IMG/VR virus record: IMGVR_UViG_3300046787_000450
Coordinates: 1-24,779 of that record
Strand: one strand, 5' to 3'
Source: a virus
DNA length: 24,779 bases
The notes below the pieces were generated by a model. It was not told where the DNA came from, made no database searches, and saw nothing but the letters and a program-made list of their open reading frames with translations. The position numbers and the translations under genes are program-made. Below are positions 3,821 to 23,520 of this stretch, piece by piece (within the stretch, counting starts at the first letter, position 1; each line of letters begins with the position of its first letter).

Positions 3821-5861
<2,041 letters not shown>

Positions 5862-5862
<1 letters not shown>

Positions 5863-7850
5863 TAGACAGTTCCTCCGTCAATTACTGTAAGTGCACTAGG
5901 GTCTGCCCACTGGTAGTCATAGTCATCAGACGATGCTTTAGTTAGTATTTGATTCACAGTTCCACCTGTAGGGATCCCTGCACCAGTCGGACCCGTTGGC
6001 CCTTGAACACCTTGAGAACCAGTAGGTCCTGTAGGGCCTTGCTCGCCAGTTGCTCCGGTTGGTCCCTGAACACCCTGAGCACCTGTTGGACCGGTAGGGC
6101 CTTGAATGCCTTGCTCTCCCTGAGCGCCAGTCGGCCCCGTGGAACCGGTTGGGCCCATATCGCCAGTTGCTCCAGTAGGGCCAGTTACAGTCGAGTCTGC
6201 ACCGGTGGGTCCAGTGGGGCCTGTAGGACCCACCTGACCTTGGGGACCAGTTACTCCCTGAATCCCCTGAACACCCTGAGGCCCGGTTGGTCCTTGAACT
6301 CCTTGCTCGCCAGTTGCTCCGGTTGGGCCGGTGCTCCCCTGAGGACCAGTTGCTCCAGTAGCTCCGGTCAACCCTGTTGCTCCTGTAGGACCTGTAGCAC
6401 CGGTAGCACCAGTTGCGCCTGTAGCACCTACCTTATTTGCGGTTATCTCTACCCAATATGAGTCATAAAAAACAAATGTCTGACCTGAAGCTGAATCGAA
6501 CCACACGTCTCCCTCTACAGGATTTTCTGGTGATAGCTCGGATACTTCGTACACACCATGGGCACCGGTCGGGCCTGTTGGGCCAGTGGGGCCTACTTCA
6601 CCCTGGGGTCCAACAATCTGACCGGCATTGTCCCAATCGCTGCCGTTCCATACGTAGAGGTCTCCGTTGGAGTTTACGATGTATGCATCATTTACAGTTA
6701 AATCGTTTGTTGGTAGGTCGGCTACTTCTTCTACTGAACCAGCAAAGTGTATAGATACACCCTGAGCACCAGTCGGGCCAATGGCACCTGTAGGTCCCTG
6801 AATACCCTGAGCACCAGTTGGGCCGGTAGGGCCAGCCTGCCCAGTTAGACCTGTATCTCCGGGAACACCCTGAGCACCTGTAGCGCCAGTTGCACCCGTT
6901 GCACCAGTTGCACCAGTAGCGCCCTGAGCACCGGTTGCACCTTGTGGCCCAGTTGCGCCTTGAATACCTTGAGTACCCTGGATTCCCTGAATACCTTGAA
7001 CACCCTGAATACCGGTCTGTCCCTGTGCGCCGGTCGCGCCTGTAGGGCCAACTTGACCGGTAAGTCCTGCGTCACCTCTAGCACCTGTAGGTCCGGTAGC
7101 ACCTGTTGGACCAGCAACAGTAGAGTCAGCTCCGGTGGCACCGGTAGCACCTGCAGGTCCGGTGGCACCGGTAGCACCTGTAGGTCCAGTGGCACCGGCA
7201 TTACCTTGAGCTCCAGTAGCGCCAGTAGCGCCCTGAGAGCCAGTCGGTCCCTGAGCTCCAGTCGCGCCAGTAGCTCCAGTCGATCCAACATTTCCTTGAA
7301 TGCCCTGAATGCCTTGAGGTCCAGTTGGACCTTGAATACCGGCTGCACCAGTCGCACCTGTAGGTCCTGCAGGGCCTTGAGAACCGGTGGGACCTACCAA
7401 ACCTATTAGACCTGTGTCTCCGGGAACACCCTGAGCACCGGTAGGTCCTATTGAACCCGTTGCACCAGTTGCACCTGTTGCGCCAGTAGCGCCTTGGGCA
7501 CCAGTTGGACCTTGGGAACCGGTAGGGCCTTGAGTGCCCTGGGCACCTGTAGCACCTGTAGCGCCTTGGGAACCGGTAGGGCCAGTCTCACCCTGAAGTC
7601 CTGTAGTACCTTGAACGCCTTGAGGGCCGGTTGGTCCGGTGGGTCCCTGAGAGCCGGTAGGGCCTGTAACGTTTGAAGCCGCGCCTGTAGCACCGGTAGC
7701 ACCAGTTGCGCCGGTAGGGCCGGTCGCGCCTTGAGTTCCGGTAGGGCCGGTAGGTCCGCCAGCCGGGCCTTGAGCTCCAGTCGGGCCTGCAGGTCCTTGA
7801 ACGCCAACGCTTTTAACTTCTACATAGGCAAAGTTGTCTGATAATGGCAC
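5862..7850 (-). CDS. Long collagen-like tail fibre shaft protein
   Basis: 662 aa, the most collagen-rich protein here: Gly-X-Y tracts occupy about 18-366, 410-432 and 474-625. They are interrupted by a [19 protein letters not shown] module (about 367-408, also present twice in the 599-aa protein) and an [21 protein letters not shown] module (about 434-470). The protein ends soon after a [20 protein letters not shown] linker with ...DGGTV. It therefore has no globular tip, unlike its neighbours, and may be a shaft that joins the next gene product. The start is GTG at 7848-7850, overlapping the TAG of the head gene (TAGTG), which fixes the start. Its first 20 residues, running into GVQGPAG, resemble the 105-aa protein that holds the same position in module A. 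Confidence 0.88.
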
Positions 7851-8212
7851 TATCTAGTTACCTCCGGACGAACTGTCAGATTGCCTTGAATAATCTTGGT
7901 GACTACTCCGGTAGCAGTTTCCTCTAGCTCCAGGTCGTAAACGTAGCTATCAGGATCTAGTGCAGCCGTCTGAGCGGGTGATGCGATGATTAGAACAGTT
8001 CCCGCAGTAGCATTAAGCTCCAGTCCACCATTTGCGGTAGTGAGCGTCAAAATTACGGTTGTAGATGGTAATTTCTCGCGAACTTGCATGCGACCTGTAT
8101 ATCCAGCAACGGATATTGGCTTTTTGGAGGAGTTTTTTATAGCTAGAGAGCGTAGTAATGTAGCACCTTGATCGACAATAATGTCATAATAATTACTGGT
8201 AGCACAGTACAC
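7850..8212 (-). CDS. 120-aa tail-fibre-associated head protein (paralogue of 23838-24200)
   Basis: 120 aa with a GTG start and a GAGG Shine-Dalgarno 7-8 nt upstream. It shares length and pattern with the first gene of module A: a Q-G-(A/S)-T-L motif near residue 15, then GYT(G/A)RMQVR, LTT(A/E)NGG, a conserved YVYDLEL near residue 90, and a C-terminal G.....R.EVT. Small proteins with this signature often lie just upstream of tail-fibre genes in tailed phages and may be baseplate- or fibre-attachment components, but the family has no proven role that I can name. It heads fibre module B and is coupled to the collagen-shaft gene by a TAGTG overlap. Confidence 0.75.
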
Positions 8213-8304: not shown

Positions 8305-8973
8305 TTAGTAAATACCCTCGCGCCACTTATCCTGCTGCTCCTTCTGCTGCGCTCTAACTAGCTCGATTTCTGCTTCCCATTCAGCCAGTCTTTCTGCTGA
8401 ATATTCGGACTCTGCGTAATCCCAGAAAGCGCCGATAGTGTGGCGAGTTCCGGACTCCACCTTGGTTACTTGGTGAACGTTGTGGATTCCACCAGGGAAG
8501 GTGATCAGCTGACCTGCTTTAGGCTTGATTGTGATGTCGTGATCGCGGAAATCTAGCTCTCCACCTTCGTAATCATCATTGATATAGAGCAGACACACTA
8601 GCTTGCTCTTCTCCCAGGCCGACGGGTTGCCGTCCATATCGGTATTGTCCGAGTGGAATGGGGCAAAAGCGCCGATTTCCCACTTCTGGGCATGGCTTGA
8701 TACTGATTTAATAGAACGACCGTGAGCATCCTCTACATAAGCCTTGAGTCGATTAATCAAGGTGTCCAAGTAATCACGTGGCAGTCCATACTGCTCCAGT
8801 TTAGGGTCATCAGTTAGTAGGCTCATGCCGTATGACTCGTAAAAAGCTGACATACTCCACGGGTGCCCCTCGTCTTCGAAGTAGGCGATAATCTTCTGCT
8901 GATCCTCTACAGGAATAAAGTTGTCGTAGTGGATGATATCTTCTTTGAAGAATCCTTTATTCTCGAACGTCAT
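8305..8973 (-). CDS. 2OG-Fe(II) oxygenase, prolyl-4-hydroxylase-like (copy 1)
   Basis: 222 aa. The double-stranded beta-helix core is clear: the metal-binding HxD is H107-S-D109, then LYINDDYEGGEL (129-140), then a distal His (H167, in HNVHQV) and a 2-oxoglutarate-binding Arg (R177, in SGTRH). This is the P4Hc/PiuC-like pattern. Enzymes of this class use Fe(II), O2 and 2-oxoglutarate to hydroxylate proline or similar residues. The C-terminus is a charged helical tail (about 190-222). A good SD (GGAGAG) precedes the ATG, and the start overlaps the unknown 159-aa gene by 17 nt. It is the last gene of the modification cassette; a 92-nt gap separates it from module B. The substrate is inferred only from context. 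Confidence 0.88.
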   Translation of the reverse strand: MTFENKGFFKEDIIHYDNFIPVEDQQKIIAYFEDEGHPWSMSAFYESYGMSLLTDDPKLEQYGLPRDYLDTLINRLKAYVEDAHGRSIKSVSSHAQKWEIGAFAPFHSDNTDMDGNPSAWEKSKLVCLLYINDDYEGGELDFRDHDITIKPKAGQLITFPGGIHNVHQVTKVESGTRHTIGAFWDYAESEYSAERLAEWEAEIELVRAQQKEQQDKWREGIY

Positions 8974-9436
8974 CGATAATCTCTCCTGTATAGCCTAGTT
9001 GCGTTAAGAAACGCTCTACTTCAAATCTCTGGTTGTCTTTAGAAAAAAGCTGAGCAAACTTGTAGATTAGTATATTATATGACTCGGTGTCTAGTTTATC
9101 CCATAGCTCGCCTAAAATTTTAGTAACGCTATGGTATTGCTCTCTGTGAAAGGCGCACTCCCCGCCCTTGGGGCGACGTAGTACTTTCTCGTGGACTCGT
9201 CCGGTTGGCTCGTATAACTTGACTGTTAGAAAGTCTCTAGCAAAACCCCAGTCGGTATAGTTACCGTAGCCTGCAGCAGCCTCTATAGCATCTCCATAGA
9301 AATATATAGATCTTGCTGGAGATTCTCCGTCTCTGGCAATAGTCAGCATATAGTGTTTAGCCACTCCCGACTTAGCCTGAGACTCGTAGTCAGCTACTAG
9401 GTCTAAATGCTCGTTTTTTAGCTCGTCTAGTCCCAT
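8957..9436 (-). CDS. Protein of unknown function within the oxygenase cassette
   Basis: 159 aa, family not recognised. It is soluble and charged, with no signal peptide or membrane segment. A region around residues 40-70 (SIYFYGDAIEAAAGYGNYTD) looks alpha/beta, and the C-terminal half (ILGELWDKL...IYKFAQLF) looks helical. It lacks the HxD...H iron-binding pattern of its neighbours. It overlaps the preceding oxygenase gene (9427-9436) and the following one (8957-8973), so it is translated from the same transcript. Position suggests an accessory to the hydroxylases, but nothing in the sequence shows this. Confidence 0.75.
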   Translation of the reverse strand: MGLDELKNEHLDLVADYESQAKSGVAKHYMLTIARDGESPARSIYFYGDAIEAAAGYGNYTDWGFARDFLTVKLYEPTGRVHEKVLRRPKGGECAFHREQYHSVTKILGELWDKLDTESYNILIYKFAQLFSKDNQRFEVERFLTQLGYTGEIIDDVRE

Positions 9437-10269
9437 TCGTGGAGGGTACCATTCTCTAGTCGTTCGTAGTACTCATCTATGCCGTGGTTTGGCGCATCCA
9501 GTGTTGATCTAAAATATGGCTTTTTATAATTAGCGGCGATCCTATCCTCTTCCATGATCTCCCACTGATCTCCGTATTTCTCTTTTAGAGAGTGCCATAT
9601 AGGGGTTCCAGGATGATTGTGCACCCAGTAGAGTCGCGTGATGTACTTATTACCGCTAAGCACGCGCCTAACTCCGTGATAGTAGGGGGCTGTAGACGGA
9701 AAAATCAGAACGTCACCCTTTGATGGTTTGTAGTCTATAGTGTCGGATTCCGAACCGTCGTCTTTTTTTACAGTAAAAGTGATCTCTCCGCCCTCGTAAT
9801 CATCATTTGAGTAAAACACGCATGTGATACCGAACTTCGGACCTGGCATGTCTGCTCTTTCGGCCTGAAAATCAGTGTGATACTCCATCGCCACTAGATC
9901 GTCTGACGTGGTTACATTGTATTTTGCTAGATTCCAGTTTCTACAAATCCAGCTATCGTTTTGGTATTCGCATCTGTCCCTGTAGATGTCAGAGATTTCA
10001 TAAAATATCTTAGATATAGCTGCCTTATAAGAGTCGCTCTGCGTGTCTACCATCTCTAAGGCCCACTCAGATTCAGTAGGGTAGTGGTCCCATTCTCCGC
10101 TAGGCCCTTGACTTATTACATGTGTACCATACTTGAACCATGTATCCCACTCGCCATTTTTTTCGTAGAAGTCTACTAGCTCATCGCTATTAGTTACGGC
10201 ACCTTTAAATACCAGTATTTTTGGGTATATTTCGTCTACAACGTAGTTTTCTTCGTACTTAGATGGCAC
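9427..10269 (-). CDS. 2OG-Fe(II) oxygenase, prolyl-4-hydroxylase-like (copy 2)
   Basis: 280 aa. H131-T-D133 (EYHTDF) supplies the metal-binding HxD, followed by FYSNDDYEGGEI (152-163). The distal His is H198 in YYHGVRRV and the 2OG-binding basic residue is probably K208 in SGNKYITR. This is the usual P4Hc-domain order, with a longer N-terminal domain and a C-terminal extension of about 60 residues beyond the core. The first codon is GTG (10267-10269) with only a weak SD, so the start is less certain than for its neighbours; the downstream codons are clearly coding. It belongs to the modification cassette and ends 10 nt inside the 159-aa gene. Its substrate is unknown; collagen-like fibre prolines are the contextual candidate. 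Confidence 0.85.
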   Translation of the reverse strand: MPSKYEENYVVDEIYPKILVFKGAVTNSDELVDFYEKNGEWDTWFKYGTHVISQGPSGEWDHYPTESEWALEMVDTQSDSYKAAISKIFYEISDIYRDRCEYQNDSWICRNWNLAKYNVTTSDDLVAMEYHTDFQAERADMPGPKFGITCVFYSNDDYEGGEITFTVKKDDGSESDTIDYKPSKGDVLIFPSTAPYYHGVRRVLSGNKYITRLYWVHNHPGTPIWHSLKEKYGDQWEIMEEDRIAANYKKPYFRSTLDAPNHGIDEYYERLENGTLHEWD

Positions 10270-10286
10270 TTTTTAGGTGTTCCTAA

Positions 10287-11054
10287 CTAATAGCTTGCAG
10301 GCTGTACCGGCTCGAATGCCGATCCAGCATTGTATTTTTCACGCGAGTCTGGGTCGTTAGGGTCGAACTCGTCGATGAAAACAAATCCAGGAAAAATGTA
10401 TTTATCGCCTTCGCGCATGGTGTGGACTCGGTGCATAAATGGATGAGTTGATGGGAAGATTAGAGCTGATCCAGCCTTTGGCTTTAGCCAAAAGTCGATC
10501 CTTCCCTCGTTCTCCGGGTCGTCTAGGTCGTCTAGAGGCTTCATATCTGAAAATCTGGTGTCGCGTAGATCGTAGTCACGAATAGCAAACGAGATCTCGC
10601 CACCCTCGTAGTTCTCGTTTAGATACAAAACGATCGAATACTTCAAGGTCCTATCTCCAGCCTGGGCGTCGAAGTGGGCTCCCATGGCGCAGCCCGGGCG
10701 GTACTTCATAACACCGACAAAGGGGGATAGGTTTGGCGAGTTCTCAAACCCCCTATCCCTATAGTAGGACGTGGCGACGTCGGTAACAGCTGCCTTGATG
10801 GCTTTTACAACACGCTCTACATCTGCTTTTCTAGGGGAATCTAGTTCAGCTAGCCTTGACTCGTCGAAGTCTTTCTTGCCGCCAAAGGCATGACCATCAC
10901 CGCTATTAGATAGCCACTTACCCCATGCTGGGATTACCGAGTGCGTAGTCTCGTCCGAGTCTAGATCCTCGATAAGGGCTACTAGTTCCTCTGAGTTTTC
11001 TATAACATCTTGGTAGTAGAAAACCTGCTCGTGTAGTTTTTCAGCTAAAAACAT
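10287..11054 (-). CDS. 2OG-Fe(II) oxygenase, prolyl-4-hydroxylase-like (copy 3)
   Basis: 255 aa. Metal ligands H127-F-D129 (GAHFDAQ), then LYLNENYEGGEISF (143-156), a distal His in FMHRVHT (H208 most likely, H211 possible) and K218 in GDKYI as the 2OG contact. Between the HxD and the distal His there is an insert of about 25 residues rich in Asp and Pro (about 160-187) that the other copies lack and that may shape a different substrate groove. The gene is flanked by small gaps (17 and 27 nt), and its ATG is preceded by seven A residues rather than a good SD. Family assignment is firm; the target is inferred from context. Confidence 0.87.
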   Translation of the reverse strand: MFLAEKLHEQVFYYQDVIENSEELVALIEDLDSDETTHSVIPAWGKWLSNSGDGHAFGGKKDFDESRLAELDSPRKADVERVVKAIKAAVTDVATSYYRDRGFENSPNLSPFVGVMKYRPGCAMGAHFDAQAGDRTLKYSIVLYLNENYEGGEISFAIRDYDLRDTRFSDMKPLDDLDDPENEGRIDFWLKPKAGSALIFPSTHPFMHRVHTMREGDKYIFPGFVFIDEFDPNDPDSREKYNAGSAFEPVQPASY

Positions 11055-11081
11055 TTTTTTATGCCTATCTGTAGGTATTAA

Positions 11082-11717
11082 CTAGTTTAGTGCGCTCTTA
11101 GGGAGTAGTACTAGGACGTTTGTTACGTACTTTGTCCCGCTTATCATCGGTACTGAATAGTGAAGATATGATGACGGGAAAACTACTACACTTCCAGGGG
11201 TAGGTTTTACTGACACCGATAGGTCACGAAAACCTAGATCTCCGCCTTCGTAATCATCGTTAAAGTACATAGATGCAGTAAAAGCTACGGGATCCTCTTT
11301 CTCCCAGTCTGGGTGCGGGCCTAAGCCCTCTCCTATGAAGTACTTTTTTATAGCTATGTGGTCTGGGCGTACGCTTTGAGGGGATTGAAAGTAAGAAATC
11401 TTCACCTCGTCGTCTAGACCTAGGTACCTGAAATACTCTCTAATACATTGATTTACTGTCTGGTAGAACTGCTCTATAAAGATAGAAGCTTTTTGTTTTA
11501 CAGATTCCTGTGTCTCTAAGTCTAGGCGTGCTTCAGTAAACTCTTTCAGCTCCCCGTATTGAGCGTTGTTAGGGTCTCTATTGGCATACCAGGGAATCCA
11601 ATCTCCTGCGGTAGCACTAACTTCTTCTTCTAGCAATTGAATAACGTCAGCCGGGTTGGGGAGTGCTCGCGGGAAGTGTAGAACCTTGTCAGCAACTACT
11701 TCGTAGTTGTTTGACAT
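11082..11717 (-). CDS. 2OG-Fe(II) oxygenase, prolyl-4-hydroxylase-like (copy 4)
   Basis: 211 aa, the shortest of the oxygenase set. HxD is H135-P-D137 (GPHPDWE), followed by MYFNDDYEGGDLGF (150-163), a distal His H186 (YLHYSVPM) and K196 (SGTKYVTN) as the probable 2OG-binding residue. The protein ends soon after the last core strand, so it is close to a bare double-stranded beta-helix with an N-terminal helical region. Its ATG (11715-11717) overlaps the stop of the next copy upstream in a TAATG junction, which fixes the start and shows translational coupling between two oxygenases. Confidence 0.87.
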   Translation of the reverse strand: MSNNYEVVADKVLHFPRALPNPADVIQLLEEEVSATAGDWIPWYANRDPNNAQYGELKEFTEARLDLETQESVKQKASIFIEQFYQTVNQCIREYFRYLGLDDEVKISYFQSPQSVRPDHIAIKKYFIGEGLGPHPDWEKEDPVAFTASMYFNDDYEGGDLGFRDLSVSVKPTPGSVVVFPSSYLHYSVPMISGTKYVTNVLVLLPKSALN

Positions 11718-12394
11718 TATGGCTGCCTATCTCCGGTGTGCTTGAGGATTGTCCAGAAGAACGGACTGACATATCGAATACCGGACTCGACTCTGGTTAC
11801 TCCATGAATATAGTTCATATCTCCGGGGAAAAAGTATGCGGCACCACGCTTAGGCTTAAACTGGATACCCTGCTCCGGAAAGTAGAGCTCGCCGCCTTGA
11901 TAGTCATCGTTGAGGTAGAAAAGTCCAGCGATATCGTAGTACGGAAAGTCGTTTGGCTTACCACGTTGATTACCTTCGTGTAACTCTTTATCTGCGTGAG
12001 GGTTTTGGAACTGACCTGGAAGCCAGCGGACCAATGCCGGACTAGTTGCACGAGCATCTACGTTGAAAAACTTATCTACTTCTACCTTTAGGCGCTCTTG
12101 AAGTCCCTGAATAATCTCTACAGCACGTGGGTCCACGCGCTTCAAAGTAGGCTCTGTTGCTACCCTATCCTCCCAGTACGAGGCATCGTAGATACAAACG
12201 CCATCCTCGTTGTAGTGCGACTCGGTGTAGTCCCAGGAAGTGTTTTTACGAGCGAACTCGTCTAGAAAATCTATCTCTTCTTCGGTCATGAAGTTCTCTA
12301 GCGAGACGATGTTATCTGGCGAGCTTCCGAAAAAGCCTGATGGAGTAATAGATACACGCTGAGTTAAGTTGATATTTTCGTTAGTGGGTTCCAT
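11717..12394 (-). CDS. 2OG-Fe(II) oxygenase, prolyl-4-hydroxylase-like (copy 5)
   Basis: 225 aa. HxD is H133-A-D135 (NPHADKE), then LFYLNDDYQGGELYF (158-172; note YQGG in place of YEGG), distal His H197 (YIHGVTRV) and R207 (SGIRYVS) as the 2OG contact. The H-G-V-x-x-V-x-x-G-x-R spacing is classic for P4Hc proteins. An AGGAT SD lies about 8 nt before the ATG. It follows the DUF6065-like pair with a 12-nt gap and is coupled to the 211-aa oxygenase by TAATG. Like its siblings it is presumed cytoplasmic (no signal peptide) and would act on fibre subunits before virion assembly, if those are the substrates. Confidence 0.88.
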   Translation of the reverse strand: MEPTNENINLTQRVSITPSGFFGSSPDNIVSLENFMTEEEIDFLDEFARKNTSWDYTESHYNEDGVCIYDASYWEDRVATEPTLKRVDPRAVEIIQGLQERLKVEVDKFFNVDARATSPALVRWLPGQFQNPHADKELHEGNQRGKPNDFPYYDIAGLFYLNDDYQGGELYFPEQGIQFKPKRGAAYFFPGDMNYIHGVTRVESGIRYVSPFFWTILKHTGDRQP

Positions 12395-12406
12395 AATACT
12401 ATCCTA

Positions 12407-13150
12407 TCACTGCTCGTACTTACGACGACTCCAGACACTCTTCTGATAGACACCGCCGTCCGGTACTCGATATTTGATGCTATTGTCCATATTAGCTTTG
12501 ACCATGGCTTCGTACTTTACGGTGTCGTCTATCTTAGAGACCCAGTCCTCCCGCTTGAACGGTATCAGCTGCGCGTACGGTGTTCCGGCTGGTAATACTC
12601 CAGTCCAACCCTTAGCAATGAAGAAGGGCATTGTGCCTGGAAGGTTGACTTTGTCGTTATCGATTATGCCGCTGGTGGTTAGAAATGGAAGGTCGAACCG
12701 GTTTAGTGGGCTCGTATATAACACACTATAGCCTTCAGGCACCTCTACTGCCCAGTCAGCCCACCAAGCAAAGTGCTCGTCTCTAAACCCTGGAGGAGTT
12801 ACAAATCCCGGCATTGGCGGTCTAAACCCGACGAAATCTTTATTCATCTGATCCAGAACTCTACAAGCTATGACGCCGTTGTCGTCCTCGTAGAACTCTA
12901 TGTCGCATGGGGTTCGATAAACGTAACCGGTCATCATCAGGTCGAATACTGCTGGACAGGCTTTCCATGTTGGAATTTTTCCGCCGTCCTGCGGGCTGAC
13001 CCAGTAGTCCTGCGTGTATGGGTTGATTGCAAAACGATCTGCTTTTCGATACCACTCGGGAATCACTTTTGAAGTAGGCTGCGGTACTGAGTCGCTCTTC
13101 TTGGTTAGCCAAGGCCTGTTTTTGATGAACTTAATTATCTGGGACGTCAA
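12407..13150 (-). CDS. DUF6065-like protein, copy 1
   Basis: 247 aa. It contains IPEWYRKAD (31-39), then CPAVFDLMMTGYVYRTPCDIEF and a C-terminal LPAGTPYAQLIPF segment. The G-(Y/W)-x3-x-P-x-D-I-x-F and P-A-G-T-P-x-A-x-(L/I)-x-P motifs are shared with the next upstream gene, so the two are distant paralogues of what I recall as the DUF6065 type, a beta-rich family of unknown function seen in phages and bacteria. The start is TTG (13148-13150). It is chosen because a perfect AGGAG SD lies 6 nt upstream and no other start occurs for about 70 codons. It overlaps the upstream gene by 20 nt and sits between oxygenase genes, which suggests a linked but unknown role. Confidence 0.78.
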   Translation of the reverse strand: MTSQIIKFIKNRPWLTKKSDSVPQPTSKVIPEWYRKADRFAINPYTQDYWVSPQDGGKIPTWKACPAVFDLMMTGYVYRTPCDIEFYEDDNGVIACRVLDQMNKDFVGFRPPMPGFVTPPGFRDEHFAWWADWAVEVPEGYSVLYTSPLNRFDLPFLTTSGIIDNDKVNLPGTMPFFIAKGWTGVLPAGTPYAQLIPFKREDWVSKIDDTVKYEAMVKANMDNSIKYRVPDGGVYQKSVWSRRKYEQ

Positions 13151-13868
13151 TTGTCGCTCCTGTCGCTGGGCACGTAATAGTCTTTAAGCGGATAGATTTT
13201 GTTTCGTGGGTACCTACCGACTGACCGTTGTAATCTACTGCATCTCGATACATTTTAGACCAGTCGCCAAGAGCGCCCTTTGCCTGAGCGACCTCTCCGT
13301 ATTTAGCAACTTCTTGCCAGTAAGAGCTGTCCGGCGCTTGTTCTACTATTTCTAGCTCGTAGTCTGATTCTAAGCTGCCTAGAGAGACGGGCAAGATAGC
13401 TGCTACTGGAGTTCCTGCTGGTATGGTGATTACTTTATTTGCCTCTGTAATCTTCCAGGCAATCGGCAGCTCCGGCATATAAAAAGATGTACTTATCAAG
13501 GTCGTAAAACATTGAGTACCGGCAATGAACTGGTTCGGTACCGGCATCGTTAGCATGGTGGTGCTTTCGTCAGTGCTAACAATAATACCTGTTTCGAAGC
13601 TCACTGTCGCATTGCACCGCTTAGGCGTGGCCCAACGCTCTCCGCTTAAGATGGTTACGTGGTCTGGAGTGGTATCGTCGATACCGTCCCAGACGAAAGA
13701 GATATCCTCAGGGAAAGAAATCCCCCACCCTAGTCGGTTGGTTAAGGTTAGTGGGAAGCACATATATGCGTGCTTTCCGACCGAATCATCCATCCACTGT
13801 CGAGTTGCTGCTAGCGGCTCGACGTGCGCAGCGCCTGGCCTGCTCTTAGTTACTCGTATAGTGTGCAC
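13131..13868 (-). CDS. DUF6065-like protein, copy 2
   Basis: 245 aa. It starts at GTG (13866-13868), overlapping the TAG of the upstream oxygenase gene (TAGTG). MCFPLTLTNRLGWGISFPED (36-55), continuing IDISF-like into the coding strand as ISFVWDG, and a later TIPAGTPVAAILPV segment match the pattern of the neighbouring 247-aa protein and of DUF6065-type proteins as I remember them. There is no iron-binding HxD pattern, signal peptide or membrane segment. The biochemical function is unknown. Its tight coupling on both sides places it in the same expression unit as the hydroxylases and the sugar transferase. A cupin-like or glycan-binding fold is possible but unproven. Confidence 0.78.
   Translation of the reverse strand: MHTIRVTKSRPGAAHVEPLAATRQWMDDSVGKHAYMCFPLTLTNRLGWGISFPEDISFVWDGIDDTTPDHVTILSGERWATPKRCNATVSFETGIIVSTDESTTMLTMPVPNQFIAGTQCFTTLISTSFYMPELPIAWKITEANKVITIPAGTPVAAILPVSLGSLESDYELEIVEQAPDSSYWQEVAKYGEVAQAKGALGDWSKMYRDAVDYNGQSVGTHETKSIRLKTITCPATGATIDVPDN
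13157..13161 (-). promoter_or_regulatory. Shine-Dalgarno for the TTG start at 13150
   Basis: The minus strand reads AGGAG six bases before TTG 13148-13150, inside the 3' end of the upstream DUF6065-like gene. It supports the non-ATG start of the 247-aa protein. Confidence 0.7.
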
Positions 13869-14605
13869 TAATTTCCGGTTTCTGCGTAAAATTCTCTACT
13901 GTGGAATTTTTCAGAGTAGTCCAGCATGGTGACCATTGAATATTTAACTCCAGACTTTACCGGCATAGCGCGGTGAGGATACATGAAGTTCGATGGGAAA
14001 ATGTAGGTCTCCCCTGCCTTAGCCTTAATAGTTGCATTCTGTAGACGGAAGTAGAGCTCTCCGCCTTCATAATCGTCGTTAGGAAAACTGACTAAAGATA
14101 CAACACAGTTATACGAATATCCGTGGTCATGGTGCTCCTGGAAGTGTTGACCTGGTCCATACTTCACATAGTTGGTTGCTTCCCAATAGCGAAGTTCTCC
14201 GATGTTGTAGCGACGGGTGTAATCCTTAACTGCCTGCATCTGACGATAGTTGACCTCGTCTGCTAGATTGTGTAGAGCTACCCCTGCTTCAGAAGTGTCC
14301 TGAAGAATATCAGACTTCTTGTACTTAAAATCTACGCAGTCGCGGTACTCTGGCATCTTCATCGCATAGCCAACCATAGCCTCTTGGTACTGGTACTGGT
14401 TGTTTGGGTCCTGAAGCACGGTCTCTAGTCGATCGATGATGTTTATCTCTTTAGGGAGGACGTCTCGGTACACCCAGATTCCGGATCCAGGGATTACCTC
14501 TTCGGCAGAGCTCCAGGTGGTTTCTTGGATCTGATACCAAGCTTTTAAACGCTCGTCTAGGGTGCGCTGGGCATCTTTATTCTGGTCTTCAGTAGGCTCA
14601 TTCAT
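13868..14605 (-). CDS. 2OG-Fe(II) oxygenase, prolyl-4-hydroxylase-like (copy 6)
   Basis: 245 aa. The HxD lies in the His-rich stretch HFQEHHDHG (H158-H-D160 the best fit), followed by SFPNDDYEGGELYF (173-186), distal His H211 (MYPHRAMPV) and K221 (SGVKYSM). The N-terminal 130 residues are mostly helical, as in other P4H-like proteins with an accessory domain. A GGAG SD lies about 9 nt before ATG 14603-14605. It is closest in layout to the next copy upstream (14620-15357): both share (A/E)A.N(Y/F)VKY.(G/P)..H.....DHG, so this pair may be the most recent duplication in the set. The target is inferred from context only. Confidence 0.88.
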   Translation of the reverse strand: MNEPTEDQNKDAQRTLDERLKAWYQIQETTWSSAEEVIPGSGIWVYRDVLPKEINIIDRLETVLQDPNNQYQYQEAMVGYAMKMPEYRDCVDFKYKKSDILQDTSEAGVALHNLADEVNYRQMQAVKDYTRRYNIGELRYWEATNYVKYGPGQHFQEHHDHGYSYNCVVSLVSFPNDDYEGGELYFRLQNATIKAKAGETYIFPSNFMYPHRAMPVKSGVKYSMVTMLDYSEKFHSREFYAETGN

Positions 14606-14619
14606 AGCTTAGATCTCCA

Positions 14620-15357
14620 TCAATATTTAAGCTCGTAGTTTTGTATTGTTTGTGGAACCCTTTGGTTCACGTTGTCTCTGTCGTTGTAGTCGCTCATAAT
14701 AACCACTGCGTACTTATTACCGCTAATCATATCCTGAGAAGCGTGCTCGTAGATATAAGTAGACGGAAACACTACTATGTCTCCAGCTTTAGGCTTGATA
14801 GATAGGTTATCCATTCGGGGGAACCATATCTCACCGCCCTCATAGTTATCATTTAGATATACAACAATAGAAATTGTGGTCACGTAGGTCGGACCGTGGT
14901 CAGCATGTATTTTAAAGTGCGTACCGGCACCCTCGTACTTTACAAAGTTAAACGCTTCGTATGATTGGATACCGACTCCCCAGGTGTGCCCATAATCATC
15001 TACGCATGTTTTTACTGCTTGAAAAATACTTTCGTGCATGTCATACAGTTCCGCATTTTCAGGATTCCTTGGACCCAGGCCCTTGGAGTTAAATTTAAAA
15101 TCTTTAGCGTTTCTAGCCTGAAGGTCTACTTCCGAAGATGAGGTTACGTAAGCCCCGCCCCATCGAAACTGAGTTTGACCGTTAAGCTTAGCTTCCAGTA
15201 GTTCTATATATTTCTGACCCTGATTTGCAGATATTGCTCCACTGTAAACGTTTATTCCTAGCGCCGGGTTTGCTACAGATATGTTCTGATTTATAGATCT
15301 GTCAGGCGTACGATTAGATGCGGTCTCAGACCTATCTTTAGTAAACCAATCATTCAT
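14620..15357 (-). CDS. 2OG-Fe(II) oxygenase, prolyl-4-hydroxylase-like (copy 7)
   Basis: 245 aa. Core motifs: H151-A-D153 (KIHADHG), VYLNDNYEGGEIWFP (166-180), distal His H205 (YIYEHASQDM) and K215 (SGNKYAVV). The first 40 residues are polar and probably flexible. FNFVKYEGAGTHFKIHADHG resembles the equivalent stretch of the 13868-14605 protein. A 14-nt gap separates it from that gene, and a 16-nt gap separates it from the sugar-transferase gene upstream. All catalytic positions are present, so it should be active. It is presumed to hydroxylate peptidyl proline or a similar residue; free amino acid or other substrates cannot be excluded. Confidence 0.88.
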   Translation of the reverse strand: MNDWFTKDRSETASNRTPDRSINQNISVANPALGINVYSGAISANQGQKYIELLEAKLNGQTQFRWGGAYVTSSSEVDLQARNAKDFKFNSKGLGPRNPENAELYDMHESIFQAVKTCVDDYGHTWGVGIQSYEAFNFVKYEGAGTHFKIHADHGPTYVTTISIVVYLNDNYEGGEIWFPRMDNLSIKPKAGDIVVFPSTYIYEHASQDMISGNKYAVVIMSDYNDRDNVNQRVPQTIQNYELKY

Positions 15358-15373
15358 GATCCCAGTATACGGT

Positions 15374-16378
15374 CTAATCTATAATTATCGGCTCTTTAGA
15401 TCTGAAATCGTCTGCGTGCCGTTTTTTGTTTAGAAGATCGTACATAGGGTTGTACCGAGACCACTGAGTGTTTAGTCCTGATTTTTTACAGAACTCGAGG
15501 ACAGATTCTAGACTTATGTCTCCGAATCGTCCATCTAGTTTTCCGGACAATAGCTTATTAAGTTTTAGCATAGAATCATCGGACTGCGCCCAGAAGGCAT
15601 CCTTGTTCATATCGCTCCACGGCCTATGAGTTACCATCCTGGATACCTGCTCGTCCGGGTACTCTTTATATGTGTTGTGGTAGTACATGATTGTTGGTGT
15701 GGAGTAAAACCTCCAACCTCGGCACCAGGCTTGCACTGTCACATATATCTCTTCGCCATGGTAGCTCATGTCGGGATCTAGCGGGACCTCGTCTACAAAA
15801 AGCTTAGGCGCGAACACCCAGCTAAATTGTAGATAGTAATCCTCGGACACGTCAGATTCGTCTACTATTTTAGACACCTCTGGAAACCCGTACCCTGGAA
15901 CATAGTCCGAATTTATTCTAGGCCTACAGTAGTTGGATACTCTCCCCGCCCTAGACCTGAGGCTGATTGACCAGCTCGGTTCGATCTCGTACTCCGGTCC
16001 AGCTACGGTTATCAATACTTTGTCGTTTTTGTAGGTTGCCTTGGCGTACTCATCTAGAACCTTGGTATCCCAGGAGTCGGCAAACAGGTTGTGCCCGCAA
16101 GTATAGAGTATGTAATCGTAATCCAAAGAGACGTCAGTGGTCTTCTCCCTAGACCAAAGCACGCCCCTGTACGCTGACAGATCGTATTTCCTATAAACGA
16201 GCTGACTCTCCGGTATAAAGCTTAGGTCAGCGTGTAGGTCATCCCTACTTTGCTCAGAGACGATAGAGAAAATTAGGTTCTCTGGTTTGGCAGCTTTTTG
16301 GTAGCAGTCTCTAACGGACTCACCCAGCTGCTTCTCTCGATAGGCGATCATCGATACTAGGATTTTTTCACTAGTCAT
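15374..16378 (-). CDS. Skp1-type GlcNAc transferase family protein (GT60, PF11397-like)
   Basis: 334 aa. The N-terminus ILVSMIAYREKQLGESVRDC matches the opening strand and helix of the GlcNAc-transferase family whose known eukaryotic members add GlcNAc to hydroxyproline of Skp1. Further family landmarks are YRGVLWSRE (70-78), LYTCGHNLFADSWD (91-104), a W/F-rich strand with PLDPDMSYHGEEIYVTVQAW (199-218) and GWRFYSTPTIMYYHNTY (221-237). The usual metal-binding D-S-H is C94-G-H96 here, although D86 and D88 lie just before it. The gene overlaps the upstream oxygenase-like gene by 8 nt and lies among prolyl hydroxylase genes, which supports hydroxyproline glycosylation (inference). The donor sugar is not shown by the sequence. 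Confidence 0.8.
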   Translation of the reverse strand: MTSEKILVSMIAYREKQLGESVRDCYQKAAKPENLIFSIVSEQSRDDLHADLSFIPESQLVYRKYDLSAYRGVLWSREKTTDVSLDYDYILYTCGHNLFADSWDTKVLDEYAKATYKNDKVLITVAGPEYEIEPSWSISLRSRAGRVSNYCRPRINSDYVPGYGFPEVSKIVDESDVSEDYYLQFSWVFAPKLFVDEVPLDPDMSYHGEEIYVTVQAWCRGWRFYSTPTIMYYHNTYKEYPDEQVSRMVTHRPWSDMNKDAFWAQSDDSMLKLNKLLSGKLDGRFGDISLESVLEFCKKSGLNTQWSRYNPMYDLLNKKRHADDFRSKEPIIID

Positions 16379-17165
16379 TTTTATCTAAATAAACGTATCC
16401 TTGAATGTGATCAACAAAATCTGGCGGAACTACGTAGCACTGCATGCAGTCGGGGCAGTCGTAGTTCCCTTCAGGAAGTCCAATAAACTGAGCAGAGTGT
16501 CCTCGATACTCATAGTACCGAATCTCGCTATCCCATCGGTGCTTCTCTATAAGGTCGTAATACTCCTGAGTGGGCGGCTTAGTGAAATCATGATCCCACG
16601 CCCAGTGGCCAGGCCTAATAAATGCGGCGAACATCAAGATATTGTATGAATCAGGGTCGTCTGACGGATACTTCGGCCTAGCGTGGGTTTGCTGCTGCCC
16701 GTGGAATAACACTGCAGAGTTCTCTTTTTCCGAGAAAACCTGATCATCTACGATGACGCCCCAGTCGTCGATGCCTTTTAGTTCTAGACATAGATCTAGC
16801 AAGTACTGAGAAGAGCTTTGATCCATGTGCTCCCAGAGATATGGTTTCACTGTACCGTTAGGTTGATATCTGGCCATGAAAGTAAAGGTTAGCTTTAGGT
16901 CAGAAACTCCAAACGATTCTCTGCACTTTTCTGTTATCTCATCCAGAATTGTTTGAGGGATACTCGGACCCCAGACCCAGCGTCCGGGTATGGTGTGGTA
17001 CGGGTTTACTTGAGGATCCGTGCCTGGCCCCCACGGGATATCTTTGATTAGCTCGCGTAAACCGTAAAAGGATTCTTCTGATAGGAAATTATTCTTAGAG
17101 AAGGCTGGCCCCACTGCGGGGAGCGGCCATTTTATGTTTGGACTGTTGTCCGCATGAGTTGGCAT
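16371..17165 (-). CDS. Divergent 2OG oxygenase-like protein with C-terminal Cys cluster
   Basis: 264 aa. It lacks the NDDYEGGE signature of its neighbours but keeps a plausible iron-binding set: H113-M-D115 (LWEHMDQSSS), then HGQQQTHARP with H155 or H161 as distal ligand and R163 as possible 2OG contact. That spacing fits a beta-helix oxygenase; an unrelated fold is possible. Near the C-terminus, CPDCMQC (237-243) could bind a metal, though only three Cys are visible. It is the first gene of the cassette: its ATG (17163-17165) has a strong AGGAG SD and lies 18 nt downstream of the terminator, leaving no room for a promoter between them. It overlaps the sugar-transferase gene by 8 nt. Confidence 0.6.
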   Translation of the reverse strand: MPTHADNSPNIKWPLPAVGPAFSKNNFLSEESFYGLRELIKDIPWGPGTDPQVNPYHTIPGRWVWGPSIPQTILDEITEKCRESFGVSDLKLTFTFMARYQPNGTVKPYLWEHMDQSSSQYLLDLCLELKGIDDWGVIVDDQVFSEKENSAVLFHGQQQTHARPKYPSDDPDSYNILMFAAFIRPGHWAWDHDFTKPPTQEYYDLIEKHRWDSEIRYYEYRGHSAQFIGLPEGNYDCPDCMQCYVVPPDFVDHIQGYVYLDKND

Positions 17166-17225: not shown

Positions 17226-18140
17226 TTACTCGGTGTCCTTAGGCTTGTCACCCTCGGCTTCCTCGTCCCAGGCTTCTACCGAGAAGATTCCGAAGTACGG
17301 TGGGAAGAACGGTGGGAAGAACGGTGGGAAGAACGGTGGGAAGAACGGGAAGAACGGTGGGAAGAACGGTGGGAAGAACGGTGGGAAGAACGGTGGGAAG
17401 AACGGGAAGAACGGTGGGAAGAACGGTGGGAAGAACGGGAAGAACGGCGGGAAGAACGGTGGGAAGAACGGGAAGAACGGTGGGAAGAACGGTGGGAAGA
17501 ACGGGAAGAACGGTGGGAAGAACGGTGGGGTGGTAGAAATGCTGTTCGAATAAGCTGACCAAGCGCCGTTACCGTTGGCATTTACAGCTCGAACACGATA
17601 AGTCTGAGAAGTGCCGCCTTCCTGAGTAATGGTAGCCGGACTGGTTGCTGAAGATCCCGACTTAGCGTCAGTGCTCTCCCAGTTATAGGTAGAAATAGCT
17701 TTTCCACCGGTTGCTGGGGTAGACCATGCCAGCGAGTCTTGGTTCGCTACAGGGCTAGTTGCTGTAGGTGTACCTACTGCATCCGGGACTGTGGTAATAG
17801 TTACTGGTGATGATGCTGTCGATGCATCCGATGGGCCTACTGCGTTAGAGGCGACTACTTTAAATGTGTAAGCAGTGTTTGAGTCAAGGCCACCAATTAC
17901 GAGCGGGGAGCTAGACCCGGTACCGCCTGTAGCTGTAGAGTCTAGTACGCCAGCTTTGTATGCTGTTACTGTGTAGCCAGTGGCGGCTGGGGAGCCTGAA
18001 GGGAGCTCAAACGCAACGCTAGCAGCACCGTCATTAAATGCGCGTGCAGTACCTACGTCAGTACCTACAACATTTATAGGGGACTGAGGCTGCAGAAAGT
18101 CATTCTGCGACTGTGATTTTCTACCGGCTCTTTTACTCAT
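17226..18140 (-). CDS. FN3 protein with long PPFF repeat tail
   Basis: 304 aa. A basic N-terminus (MSKRAGRKSQSQ) is followed by two fibronectin type III domains (about 21-115 and 118-204; the second keeps YRVRAVNANGNGAWS). Residues 205-281 are an uninterrupted low-complexity array of PPFF and PFF units, followed by a short acidic tail (EEAEGDKPKDTE). There is no signal peptide. The Pro/Phe array would be extended or aggregating and very hydrophobic, which is unusual for a soluble virion protein. It is the last gene before the terminator, so it probably belongs to the virion fibre set. Its prolines are another candidate substrate for the nearby prolyl hydroxylases (inference). FN3 domains suggest binding to host-surface sugars. 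Confidence 0.87.
   Translation of the reverse strand: MSKRAGRKSQSQNDFLQPQSPINVVGTDVGTARAFNDGAASVAFELPSGSPAATGYTVTAYKAGVLDSTATGGTGSSSPLVIGGLDSNTAYTFKVVASNAVGPSDASTASSPVTITTVPDAVGTPTATSPVANQDSLAWSTPATGGKAISTYNWESTDAKSGSSATSPATITQEGGTSQTYRVRAVNANGNGAWSAYSNSISTTPPFFPPFFPFFPPFFPPFFPFFPPFFPPFFPFFPPFFPPFFPFFPPFFPPFFPPFFPPFFPFFPPFFPPFFPPFFPPYFGIFSVEAWDEEAEGDKPKDTE
17299..17523. repeat. Tandem 12-nt/9-nt repeat array coding the PPFF tract
   Basis: On the plus strand the array reads GGTGGGAAGAAC (12 nt) with shortened GGGAAGAAC units (9 nt): by eye about fifteen 12-mers and five 9-mers in 225 nt, with one T-to-C variant. Both unit lengths are multiples of three, so copy-number change keeps the PPFF/PFF frame open. 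It is expected to vary in length by slippage or recombination. All six frames are open through it, so the other long ORFs here are artefacts. Confidence 0.97.
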
Positions 18141-18162: not shown

Positions 18163-20997
18163 CTAGGCCATCAAGTCGCCGTAAACAACCCATGTATTGG
18201 CGGCTCGCTTCATTAGTGTAGCAGATGACCATTGGGTGCGGAGCTTTAGACCTGGAGTAGCGTTGACAGTTGTAGTTCCGGGGGTTACAGCTGCAATAGT
18301 TACCTGACCAGTTCCTGTTTGCAGAATGTCTAGCGTAGTACCTACAGGATAGTTTACTGATGCATCAGTTGGGATGCTTAGTGTAACTCCGGTAGAGCTA
18401 TTAATCTCAATCAGAGTGTCGCGCTCTGTTAGAGAGGACAGTGTATAGGCTGCCGTTTTCTGCGAGATAGTGGTAATTGAAGGTACACCAGCTTTTGTCT
18501 GGGTGGCGTCAGTGAAAGCGATTCCGCTAGCTGAAACTGTAGTGGTACCAGTAAATGTTGCATTAGCTAGCGGTGCTTTTGCATCCAGCTGAGTCTGAAT
18601 AGCGCTAGTTACACCGTCAACATAGCCCAGCTCTGTAGCAGACACATTGCCGATAGATGTGGTAGATGGTAGTACTACGGTGCCTGTCAAAGTGGCGTTA
18701 GCTAGAGGAGCATATGTGGTAGCCGCTGTCGAGCTAGCAAGCTTTGCATCCAGCTGAGTTTGAATAGCAGAGGTGACACCATTTAAATATTGAAGCTCTG
18801 TGTTAGAGACGTCGCCAATAGTTGCTGAAGCTGCCTCGAATGCTCCGACGGCTAGAGCGTCTAGCGATGCTTGAGTGAAGTTGACTGTAGTGGTTGGCTC
18901 GTCAATCACGCCCTTGAAAAGCTTCCACTTGCTGTCTGACGAGTCACGAACTAGACCTGAGTGCTGATATGTACCATCGTTGAAGCTAGCAACTAGACCT
19001 AGGTCAGACGAGTTTGCATCATTGCCTTCACCGATATAGATTAGAGGGTCTGTGATGGTTAGATCTGTAGCATTTACAGTGGTAGTTGTTCCGTTTACAG
19101 TGAAGTCACCAGAAATAATAAGGTCTCCACCGATGTACGCACTGTCCCCAGTTCCAAGACCACCGGTAATTACTAGTGCACCAGTGGTGGTGCTGCTAGA
19201 GGCAGTGTTAGATGAAATAACTACATCTCCGGTGAAAGTATCGCCAGAAAGATCTGCCTTTGCATCCAGCTGAGTCTGAATAGCGCTAGTTACACCGTCA
19301 ACATAGCCCAGCTCTGTAGCAGATACATTGCCGATGCTAGTTGTAGAAGGAAGAGCAATGGTTCCGGTGAATGTAGCATTAGCTAGCGGTGCTTTTGCAT
19401 CCAGCTGAGTCTGAATAGCGCTAGTTACACCGTCAACATAGTTAAGTTCTGTTGTTGTAGCAGTAATGCCATCAAGTACGTTTAGCTCGGCTGCTGATGC
19501 AGTTACGTCGCTAATGTCTGCAGCTACAACGGTGATGCTATTGTCTGCGGTGCTGATTGTTTTATTGGTTAGAGTCTGAGTGCCCGATGTTGTAGTAACG
19601 TTGGCATCTATTTCAATGGCCCCGGATAGATTGAACTGTAGTCCAGTGCTGACTGATGCAGAAACCGCGCCAGTAGTGTCGTTATATGCAAGACCGTCTC
19701 CAACGTTTAGTCCGATGGCGTCCTGAGCACGCTCATTGGTGAAGTATTGGTTTGTGCCTTCTACAACTGCAGAAGTGGTAAGTGCTCCGATTTCTGAATC
19801 AGTGTAGCCGTTGGCTGTACTCACGGCCGCATCCGCTTTAGCTTGAGCTCCGGATTGAGTCTCTAGTAGCGAGGTGTCCGCAATTCCGTGAACACTGGTA
19901 GTGTCCGAGGCGTGGTCTGAAAGGTCGCTAGAGCTAGCCTTAGCATTCAACTGAGTCTGAATAGCGCTAGTTACACCATTTACATAATCAATCTCGGTTG
20001 CAGAAACGTTGCCAATAGAGGTGCTCGCTGGAAGTACCACCGTGCCAGTCAAAGTCGCATTAGCTAGTGGTGCATAGATGGTCTCGGCGGCAGTGGTTGC
20101 TAGTTTTGCATCTAGCTGCGACTGAATCCCACTAGTTACGCCATTTACATAGCTTATTTCAGTGTCTGAGACGCTGCCGATAGAGGTCGTTCCAGGCAAA
20201 ACTACAGTGCCTGTAAAAGTAGGATCTGCTAGTGGAGCTTTTACGGAGATAGCTTCAGATATCATTGTTGAAACATCTGACTCGGTGGTAAGTACGCTTG
20301 TATCAGCTATACCATGCACGTTAGTGGTTAGGTTTGCGTGTACTAAATCTGCTGCGTCAGCGTAATCCTCGGCATCGGCTAGAGTATCTGCCAACCCAGT
20401 TACGAACTCTGCAGAAGTGGTTCCAGCGTACTGGAGACCTACCCAAGTAGCTACACCATTACCGATTTTAAACTTGCCGGTGTTTGACTCTAGAGCAAAC
20501 GTATTAGCTGATACTACCGCGTTAGCTGTAGTCCAGTTAGATGCGGTATCAACTACTAAAGTTGCTTTGGTTGCAATAGATGTTGTGATTGTAGTAGCAA
20601 AATTAGCATCGTCACCTAGTGCAGCAGCTAGCTCATTTAGGGTATTAAGAGTGGTTGGTGCTGTATCCACTAGGTTTGAGATAGCTGCGTCAGTGTACCC
20701 GTTTGCAGCAGTTTCTGCTGCATTTGCTTTAAACTGCGCTCCGGTTTGAGTCTCCAAGGCAGCAGTATTTGCGATACCGTGAACGCTAGTTGTGTCAGCG
20801 ATGTGAGTATCTATTAGACCTGTGATTTCAGACGGAGTGTCCGTAGCATAGGCAAGTGAAGTCCAAGTCGTTGACCCATTACCAATCTTAAACTTACCGG
20901 TGTCGGTCTCAAATCCAGCCTCTCCTGCAGACAGGGTAGGGTTAGCTGAAGTCCACTCGGCGGCTGTACCGCGTCGGAGCTGAATCTTAATCGCCAT
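18163..20997 (-). CDS. Large tail fibre protein with Mtd-type N-terminus and six fibre repeats
   Basis: 944 aa. The N-terminus IQLRRGTAAEWTSANPTLSA with DTGKFKIGNGSTTW matches the N-terminal domain of major tropism determinant proteins and related fibres; a second, degenerate copy lies at about 146-192. The central part has six units ending in (Y/L)V(N/D)GVTS.IQ.QL.AK, alternating with TFTGTVVLP.TTSIGNVSATEL stretches, typical of trimeric beta-helical shafts. Residues 844-944 form a tip domain (TAAYTLSSL...LNATPG-like...VVYGDLMA) also found at the end of the 599-aa collagen fibre. A TAATG overlap couples it to the 132-aa gene upstream. It is most likely a main host-recognition or long-fibre subunit. 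Confidence 0.9.
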   Translation of the reverse strand: MAIKIQLRRGTAAEWTSANPTLSAGEAGFETDTGKFKIGNGSTTWTSLAYATDTPSEITGLIDTHIADTTSVHGIANTAALETQTGAQFKANAAETAANGYTDAAISNLVDTAPTTLNTLNELAAALGDDANFATTITTSIATKATLVVDTASNWTTANAVVSANTFALESNTGKFKIGNGVATWVGLQYAGTTSAEFVTGLADTLADAEDYADAADLVHANLTTNVHGIADTSVLTTESDVSTMISEAISVKAPLADPTFTGTVVLPGTTSIGSVSDTEISYVNGVTSGIQSQLDAKLATTAAETIYAPLANATLTGTVVLPASTSIGNVSATEIDYVNGVTSAIQTQLNAKASSSDLSDHASDTTSVHGIADTSLLETQSGAQAKADAAVSTANGYTDSEIGALTTSAVVEGTNQYFTNERAQDAIGLNVGDGLAYNDTTGAVSASVSTGLQFNLSGAIEIDANVTTTSGTQTLTNKTISTADNSITVVAADISDVTASAAELNVLDGITATTTELNYVDGVTSAIQTQLDAKAPLANATFTGTIALPSTTSIGNVSATELGYVDGVTSAIQTQLDAKADLSGDTFTGDVVISSNTASSSTTTGALVITGGLGTGDSAYIGGDLIISGDFTVNGTTTTVNATDLTITDPLIYIGEGNDANSSDLGLVASFNDGTYQHSGLVRDSSDSKWKLFKGVIDEPTTTVNFTQASLDALAVGAFEAASATIGDVSNTELQYLNGVTSAIQTQLDAKLASSTAATTYAPLANATLTGTVVLPSTTSIGNVSATELGYVDGVTSAIQTQLDAKAPLANATFTGTTTVSASGIAFTDATQTKAGVPSITTISQKTAAYTLSSLTERDTLIEINSSTGVTLSIPTDASVNYPVGTTLDILQTGTGQVTIAAVTPGTTTVNATPGLKLRTQWSSATLMKRAANTWVVYGDLMA
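18561..18625. repeat. 65-nt exact direct repeat within the 944-aa fibre gene (second copy at 19377-19441)
   Basis: Bases 18561-18625 and 19377-19441 are identical over 65 nt. A third copy at about 19258-19306 matches most of it, including the GCATCCAGCTGAGTCTGAAT block. They encode the LDAK...VTSAIQTQ unit of the fibre shaft. Identity at codon third positions points to recent duplication or gene conversion rather than only protein-level constraint. Confidence 0.9.
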
Positions 20998-21395: not shown

Positions 21396-21402
21396 AGTTT
21401 TT

Positions 21403-21407
21403 CCTCT
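21403..21407 (-). promoter_or_regulatory. Shine-Dalgarno for the TTG start at 21395
   Basis: The minus strand reads AGAGG seven bases before TTG 21393-21395. It decides the start of the 132-aa gene, together with the N-terminal match to the 696-aa protein. Confidence 0.7.
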
Positions 21408-21419
21408 TGTTGTTGGTTA

Positions 21420-23510: not shown

Positions 23511-23520
23511 TTATTTTTCC

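Follow-up and report, generated by a model that had tools for sequence, protein, structure and literature searches.

What does a phage modify with a battery of prolyl 4-hydroxylase (P4H)-like enzymes encoded among its fibre genes? The question is raised by the IMG/VR record IMGVR_UViG_3300046787_000450 of an uncultivated tailed phage, which was analysed over its whole length of 24,779 bases (the window). Few unexplained accessory genes are as common in aquatic phages as those for Fe(II)/2-oxoglutarate (2OG) oxygenases. In the window, oxygenases and a putative transferase form an enzyme cassette between two fibre modules. The original prediction for this locus was that the phage hydroxylates its own collagen-like fibres and then glycosylates the hydroxyproline (Hyp) with N-acetylglucosamine (GlcNAc). 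Our analysis points to a different main substrate. With a probability of roughly 0.58, a conserved cassette of oxygenases and DUF6065 proteins modifies, most likely by prolyl hydroxylation, the Pro-Phe tail carried by an FN3 fibre protein that is encoded directly upstream.

A conserved oxygenase cassette follows a Pro-Phe tail protein

The window contains 23 minus-strand open reading frames (ORFs) arranged head to tail, with gaps of at most 60 bp and a single exception of 92 bp. The order of transcription leads from a fibre module (24200 to 18163) through the FN3-(PPFF)n protein (18140-17226) and then the enzyme cassette (17165 to 8305) to another fibre module, which opens with a protein paralogous to the starter of the first one and includes three collagen-like proteins (Table 1). 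The tail of the FN3 protein is encoded by a 12-bp tandem repeat of 21 copies (17292-17528), in which the Pro codons differ at the third position only (CCA/CCG). PPFF tracts were mentioned in the original prediction but not singled out there; the array is real. The repeat unit differs among loci (PPFF, PPYF, PPHF, FFAPPG, FFSPPS), and the conserved trait is therefore Pro-Phe richness and not one sequence.

Seven window proteins match PF13640 above its curated cut-off (32.6-47.3 bits versus 27). The HxD motif, the distal His and a K/R 10 residues later are intact in all seven, as originally proposed; the K/R site of 10287-11054 was taken from an alignment (HRVHTMREGDK). The product of 16371-17165, not recognised in the original prediction, is probably an eighth, diverged oxygenase. 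It gave no Pfam match in a profile search and only a weak match to phrog_2954, its alignment contains HMD...HAR, and orthologues that are 40-47% identical occupy the same position in relatives. In the tree, each of the three core oxygenases falls into a clade with one member per genome (support 0.98-1.0), and the remaining ones are patchier; the battery is thus an old differentiated set and not a product of recent duplication. The PDB matches of the oxygenase profile are mostly protein hydroxylases or PKHD-type enzymes, including prolyl 3-hydroxylase 1, PHD2 and the P4H 5c5t, which we take to be the enzyme (vCPH) of Chlorella virus PBCV-1.

An IMG/VR search with the transferase gave 22 loci, which were followed up by whole-record scans and gene maps. 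A syntenic core is found in about seven distinct phages, in the order 16371-like protein, transferase, oxygenase, oxygenase, DUF6065, phrog_7084 and oxygenase. A variable set of additional oxygenases comes next, and the collagen module after that. The upstream neighbour protein ends in a PPFF/PPYF array wherever the contig reaches it. In one relative (G015) the oxygenase core and the tail protein are preserved; no collagen was detected in its 48 kb, and the transferase is more than 30 kb distant.

The cassette and the tail are linked from both sampling directions

Two samples were drawn from IMG/VR and scored with profiles built from the cassette proteins. The tail sample (at least 120 loci) came from a scan for three PPFF/PPYF units, and the collagen sample (another 120 loci) from a scan for three Gly-Pro-Thr units. 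Oxygenases were found in 86/120 tail loci but only 10/120 collagen loci, at densities of 2.97 and 0.13 per 10 kb. The corresponding counts were 59 versus 3 for DUF6065 and 5 versus 0 for the transferase, and collagen was found in 2/120 tail loci. The nearest oxygenase lies downstream of the tail ORF in 75/78 cases, at a median distance of 366 bp, and on the same strand in 66/78. A large number of the 120 tail loci are short or break off not far beyond the tail, with 4 kb of downstream sequence available for 51 tail ORFs; the 72% with oxygenases is therefore probably an underestimate. When the repeat is at the protein C-terminus and at least 4 kb follows, oxygenases are present in all 33 loci.

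The reverse sample consisted of 79 new loci chosen by DUF6065, every one of which contains oxygenases. Among those with at least 4.5 kb of upstream sequence, 47/47 are preceded on the same strand by a P/F-rich repeat ORF; the composition rule that defines such an ORF is satisfied by none of the 120 collagen loci. Collagen is present in 26/79 of these loci and the transferase in 7/79. The linkage also extends to cellular genomes (257 Gb), in which the tail pattern occurs in only 11 stretches. Four of these can be clearly recognised as Pro-Phe tails; they lie in three metagenome-assembled genomes (MAGs), and all four adjoin oxygenase and/or DUF6065 matches. One of them carries a PASTA domain in place of FN3.

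Several observations weigh against the tail as the substrate of prolyl hydroxylation. Oxygenases are missing from the neighbourhood of some PPFF repeats, chiefly internal ones: when the repeat is internal and at least 4 kb follows, oxygenases are present in 11/18 loci. At 70% nucleotide identity, 101/120 tail loci fall into one cluster, and the linkage could thus be inherited synteny in part. Masking the repeat did not prevent this collapse of the tail set at 70%, and thresholds of 80% and 90% and a within-phage contrast were added. At 80% identity with the repeat masked, oxygenases occur in 45/67 tail clusters versus 10/117 collagen clusters (Fisher p 7e-17). Within 20 tail phages, their density falls from 2.62 per 10 kb close to the tail to 0.33 in a stretch far from it, and lineage alone is therefore not enough to explain the linkage. 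This contrast and the three MAGs argue against inherited synteny as the sole cause. Cassettes with collagen have a mean of 7.6 oxygenases versus 5.2 in those without, a difference that is confounded by clade; part of the set may therefore serve collagen. In addition, the reaction may be aromatic in place of prolyl hydroxylation.

The oxygenases might instead target host proteins, the ribosome or metabolism, with the fibre locus being a mere hot spot for cargo. Their wide distribution fits this idea: 2OG oxygenases are filed by PHROG as phage auxiliary genes, and at least five copies are found in phages with short tails. Such a role is improbable in view of their constant position beside the Pro-Phe protein, seen from both sampling directions, and of how few oxygenases are found elsewhere in the same phages or beside other fibre genes.

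Among named phages, DUF6065 had no match and one oxygenase matched a single marine virus record. The matches to named phages, including those of the transferase, thus point to no cultured host. The MAG tails with cassette genes (L287, L290, L294, L295) are on contigs assigned to bacterial MAGs of Verrucomicrobiales, Gammaproteobacteria SP183 and Chitinophagaceae. Their contigs may be prophages, or phage contigs binned with bacteria, and may lead to the hosts.

Collagen-like fibres are not the common partner

The three collagen-like proteins were predicted correctly, each matching PF01391 (Table 1). Counting only runs of at least three, they carry 301 strict Gly-X-Y triplets in total. The hundreds of Gly-Pro-Thr and Gly-Ala-Thr triplets originally described hold for collagen triplets as a whole (about 300), but only 135 are of these two kinds. 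Pro occupies the X position in 96/301 triplets and the Y position in 4/301, and Thr occupies the Y position in 153/301. Y-position Pro (X-Pro-Gly), the substrate criterion of the collagen P4H system, is thus nearly absent. An enrichment of Y-Pro in enzyme-bearing phages was considered and rejected, with 0.4-0.8% in cassette phages versus 1.9% in phages without the enzymes. Collagen as the common partner or main driver of the oxygenases was likewise rejected by the Gly-Pro-Thr-sampled control, and oxygenases are common near tails without collagen. Virus-encoded hydroxylation of the phage's own fibre proteins is still the best reading, but collagen as the main substrate is not supported. Some oxygenases may nonetheless have a role on collagen.

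A transferase with an altered metal site

The transferase (15374-16378, minus strand) matches PF11397 with 71.1 bits versus a cut-off of 21 (E 1.5e-19), in agreement with the original prediction, which a missing match would have refuted. A PDB sequence search found no sequence relative, and fold comparison was therefore used. The predicted structure (mean predicted local distance difference test score, pLDDT, 94.6) has a GT-A fold like polypeptide N-acetylhexosamine-transferases. Its best solved matches are all polypeptide N-acetylgalactosamine (pp-GalNAc)-transferases (Z 18.7-22.4), with the next family at Z 17.1; the top match is pp-GalNAc-T2 (6nqt_E; Z 22.4, 3.1 Å over 267 residues).

In pp-GalNAc-transferases, Mn2+ is bound by a DxH motif plus a later His. 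This motif is replaced by CGH in the window enzyme and by C-G/A-H in the cassette subfamily, while the GEE motif and the second His (H234) are retained. DAH or DSH is found in the phage PF11397 members that lie outside the cassette, second copies from the same genomes among them. Because the Asp is exchanged for Cys, the cassette transferase may use metal differently, use another donor or act as a binding protein. The two classes share phage genomes (L044:14561-15535, L044:16848-17897, L025:1011-1964), and DxH copies are present in further tail-bearing phages (L118, L142). An alignment search of bacterial genomes confirmed no relative of the transferase. Among named phages only jumbo phages of Xanthomonas/Stenotrophomonas were matched, and the annotations near those matches name neither an oxygenase nor collagen.

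The acceptor is not revealed by family membership, since GT60/PF11397 holds the Skp1 Hyp enzyme as well as Ser/Thr-directed enzymes of Dictyostelium and T. cruzi (PMC8724618, PMC6939170). The Pro-Phe tail of the window phage has no Ser, Thr or Lys. Sugar sites on it after hydroxylation could only be Hyp, the single Tyr or hydroxylated Phe.

These data bear on two further explanations. The cassette could modify several fibre proteins, with the core oxygenases acting on the Pro-Phe tail, the extra ones on collagen X-Pro and the transferase on Thr in Gly-Pro-Thr/Gly-Ala-Thr triplets. The Ser/Thr-directed GT60 members, the pp-GalNAc-transferase folds, the Thr in about half of the Y positions and the larger number of oxygenases in collagen-bearing cassettes agree with such a division of labour. 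The P4H of B. anthracis hydroxylates both X and Y Pro (PMC8968730), and glycosylated Thr occurs in the cuticle collagen of the vent worm Riftia, where galactosyl-Thr is stabilising (PMC10141479). However, the oxygenase number is confounded by clade, Y-Thr is equally common in collagens of phages without the cassette, and phage collagens are heat-stable without Hyp (PMC3368898). We regard this explanation as unlikely, though it deserves serious consideration. The originally predicted pathway, in which Hyp made by P4Hs on the collagen fibres receives GlcNAc from the transferase as on Skp1, accounts for finding PF11397, P4H-like genes and collagen in one run, in the same order in several relatives. 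It is very improbable given the scarcity of Y-Pro here and in relatives, the rarity of oxygenases beside collagen alone and a transferase that most cassettes lack and that has CxH for DxH. The Hyp-glycosylation step in particular is weak.

DUF6065 and phrog_7084 proteins

Inside the cassette are two non-oxygenase families, DUF6065 and phrog_7084, which are related to each other (hhalign probability 94.6% over 127 columns). Structure prediction was made for DUF6065 alone. The model (pLDDT 82.8) resembles dUTPases, with Z scores of up to 11.9 over 116-126 residues (2.9-4.8 Å), and the fold is predicted to be dUTPase-like. The dUTPase motifs AGxD, [PG]RS[SG] and DxDYRG are absent from the DUF6065 and phrog_7084 proteins. 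DUF6065 is very common in viral contigs, with at least 599 stretches in a scan.

Proposed mechanism and relation to known systems

From gene content, synteny and linkage we infer that the tail is the substrate, Pro the site and hydroxylation the reaction, and that the modified tail would be present in the virion and confer a benefit such as adhesion or rigidity. The tail protein would be made first, and its hydrophobic Pro-Phe repeat probably adopts a polyproline-like conformation. The three core P4H-like oxygenases and the phage-specific variable set would then hydroxylate the tail prolines, the paralogues perhaps differing in site preference. The predicted dUTPase-like DUF6065 and phrog_7084 proteins may assist, for instance by keeping the substrate in place. 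In a minority of phages, including the window phage, the GT60-like transferase with its altered metal site may cap some of the hydroxyls; its acceptor, if it is active, would be Hyp on the tail or Thr in the collagen triplets. Hydroxylation could tune the solubility and packing of the very hydrophobic tail.

Virus-encoded prolyl hydroxylation has precedents. PBCV-1 also encodes a P4H, matched by the window oxygenase profile, which reportedly hydroxylates proline-rich repeat peptides, some resembling the virus's own repeats. It is, however, a single algal-virus enzyme without a linked paralogue battery, DUF6065 or a Pro-Phe tail. Collagen modification in mimivirus acts on lysine/hydroxylysine, whereas Lys is rare in the window collagen and absent from the tail, and the transferase family differs. 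Mimivirus is similar in hydroxylating and glycosylating its own collagen (PMC8968730). The P4H/BclA system of B. anthracis is similar in having a prokaryotic P4H that acts on Gly-Pro-containing collagen peptides and a collagen rich in Gly-Pro-Thr, but it has one enzyme, which prefers Y-Pro. BclA is glycosylated by unrelated enzymes. The Skp1 pathway (PhyA/Gnt1, CAZy GT60) likewise combines a P4H-type oxygenase with a PF11397 transferase (PMC6939170). It differs in modifying one site on a cytosolic protein with one hydroxylase and later extension enzymes, and the phage enzyme lacks the Asp of DxH. Plant extensins share many P4H paralogues with overlapping site preferences, proline-rich repeats and subsequent Hyp glycosylation (PMC7960765); they are made in a cellular secretory pathway and have Ser-Hyp repeats instead of Pro-Phe.

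A literature search of open-access papers turned up neither Pro-Phe tails nor P4H cassettes in phages, and a multi-enzyme cassette with a dedicated tail appears to be undescribed in the literature searched. A large subset of phage oxygenases gains a concrete substrate candidate, with a simple sequence rule: a Pro-Phe tail directly upstream of the battery. If our reading is true, these phages hydroxylate their structural proteins to an extent that has no described parallel among viruses of prokaryotes, and the cassettes offer natural enzyme-substrate pairs for making modified Pro-aromatic polymers. More tentatively, and at somewhat less than even odds, (PPFF)n-type tails may represent a widespread class of phage structural polymers, matured by five to a dozen prolyl hydroxylases with dUTPase-fold helpers and occasionally glycosylated. 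Such a hydroxyproline-aromatic virion material would be comparable in principle to extensins or mussel adhesive.

Other features of the locus

Table 1. Features of the window, in order of coordinates.
Feature	Coordinates	Strand	Evidence
FN3-like protein with poly-Pro tract, cut by window end	3..2021	-	fn3 match below cut-off
Collagen-like fibre protein	2021..3820	-	PF01391 5.5e-19; Y-Pro 2/44 triplets
Collagen-like fibre protein	3820..5862	-	PF01391 7.7e-37; Y-Pro 0/88 triplets
Collagen-like fibre protein, possible secondary substrate	5862..7850	-	PF01391 1.3e-70; X-Pro 53, Y-Pro 2, Y-Thr 93 of 169 triplets
Fibre-module starter protein, paralogue of 23838-24200 (48% identity)	7850..8212	-	phrog_1084/phrog_3304, L-shaped tail fibre assembly
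Variable-set oxygenase, last gene before collagen module	8305..8973	-	PF13640 7.2e-11
Small protein; homologues in some other cassettes	8957..9436	-	no Pfam or PHROG match
Variable-set oxygenase	9427..10269	-	PF13640 1.8e-9
Variable-set oxygenase	10287..11054	-	PF13640 2.1e-11
Variable-set oxygenase	11082..11717	-	PF13640 1.6e-7
Core oxygenase 3	11717..12394	-	PF13640; orthologous clade support 1.0
phrog_7084 protein, distant DUF6065 relative	12407..13150	-	phrog_7084 3.3e-33
DUF6065 protein	13131..13868	-	PF19541 1e-24
Core oxygenase 2	13868..14605	-	PF13640; orthologous clade support 0.99
Core oxygenase 1	14620..15357	-	PF13640; one-per-genome orthologous clade, support 0.98
GT60/PF11397-like transferase, CxH subfamily, optional cassette part	15374..16378	-	PF11397 1.5e-19
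Diverged oxygenase-like protein (HMD...HAR), eighth candidate	16371..17165	-	alignment; weak phrog_2954 match
Tail protein: FN3 domain and C-terminal Pro-Phe repeat; proposed main substrate	17226..18140	-	PF00041 3.4e-8
(PPFF/PFF)n tail, residues 205-283, only P, F and one Y	17292..17528	-	12-bp tandem repeat
Fibre protein with Mtd_N start, upstream module	18163..20997	-	PF18454 6.9e-18; tail fibre PHROGs
Upstream fibre module ORFs 20997-21395, 21420-23510, 23521-23838, 23838-24200	20997..24200	-	ORF list, PHROG matches

In several phages, Hint/intein-like domains (PF13403, below cut-off) directly follow the Pro-Phe tail (L321:6367-7728, L325:6979-8367, L080:6071-7393); a typical HN terminates some of them. 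If such a domain cleaved itself off, the tail would become the C-terminus, perhaps joined to another moiety. A C-terminal motif after the tail (FxIxS) was considered as a conserved feature and rejected as clade-specific (2/109). The occurrence of PPFF in mammalian proline-rich peptides such as PR-39 is regarded as coincidence. In the upstream fibre module, the Mtd_N start of the fibre protein 18163-20997 is a Major tropism determinant N-terminal domain. The ORF 24391-24779, on the plus strand, runs in the opposite direction, has no Pfam match and is truncated at the window edge.

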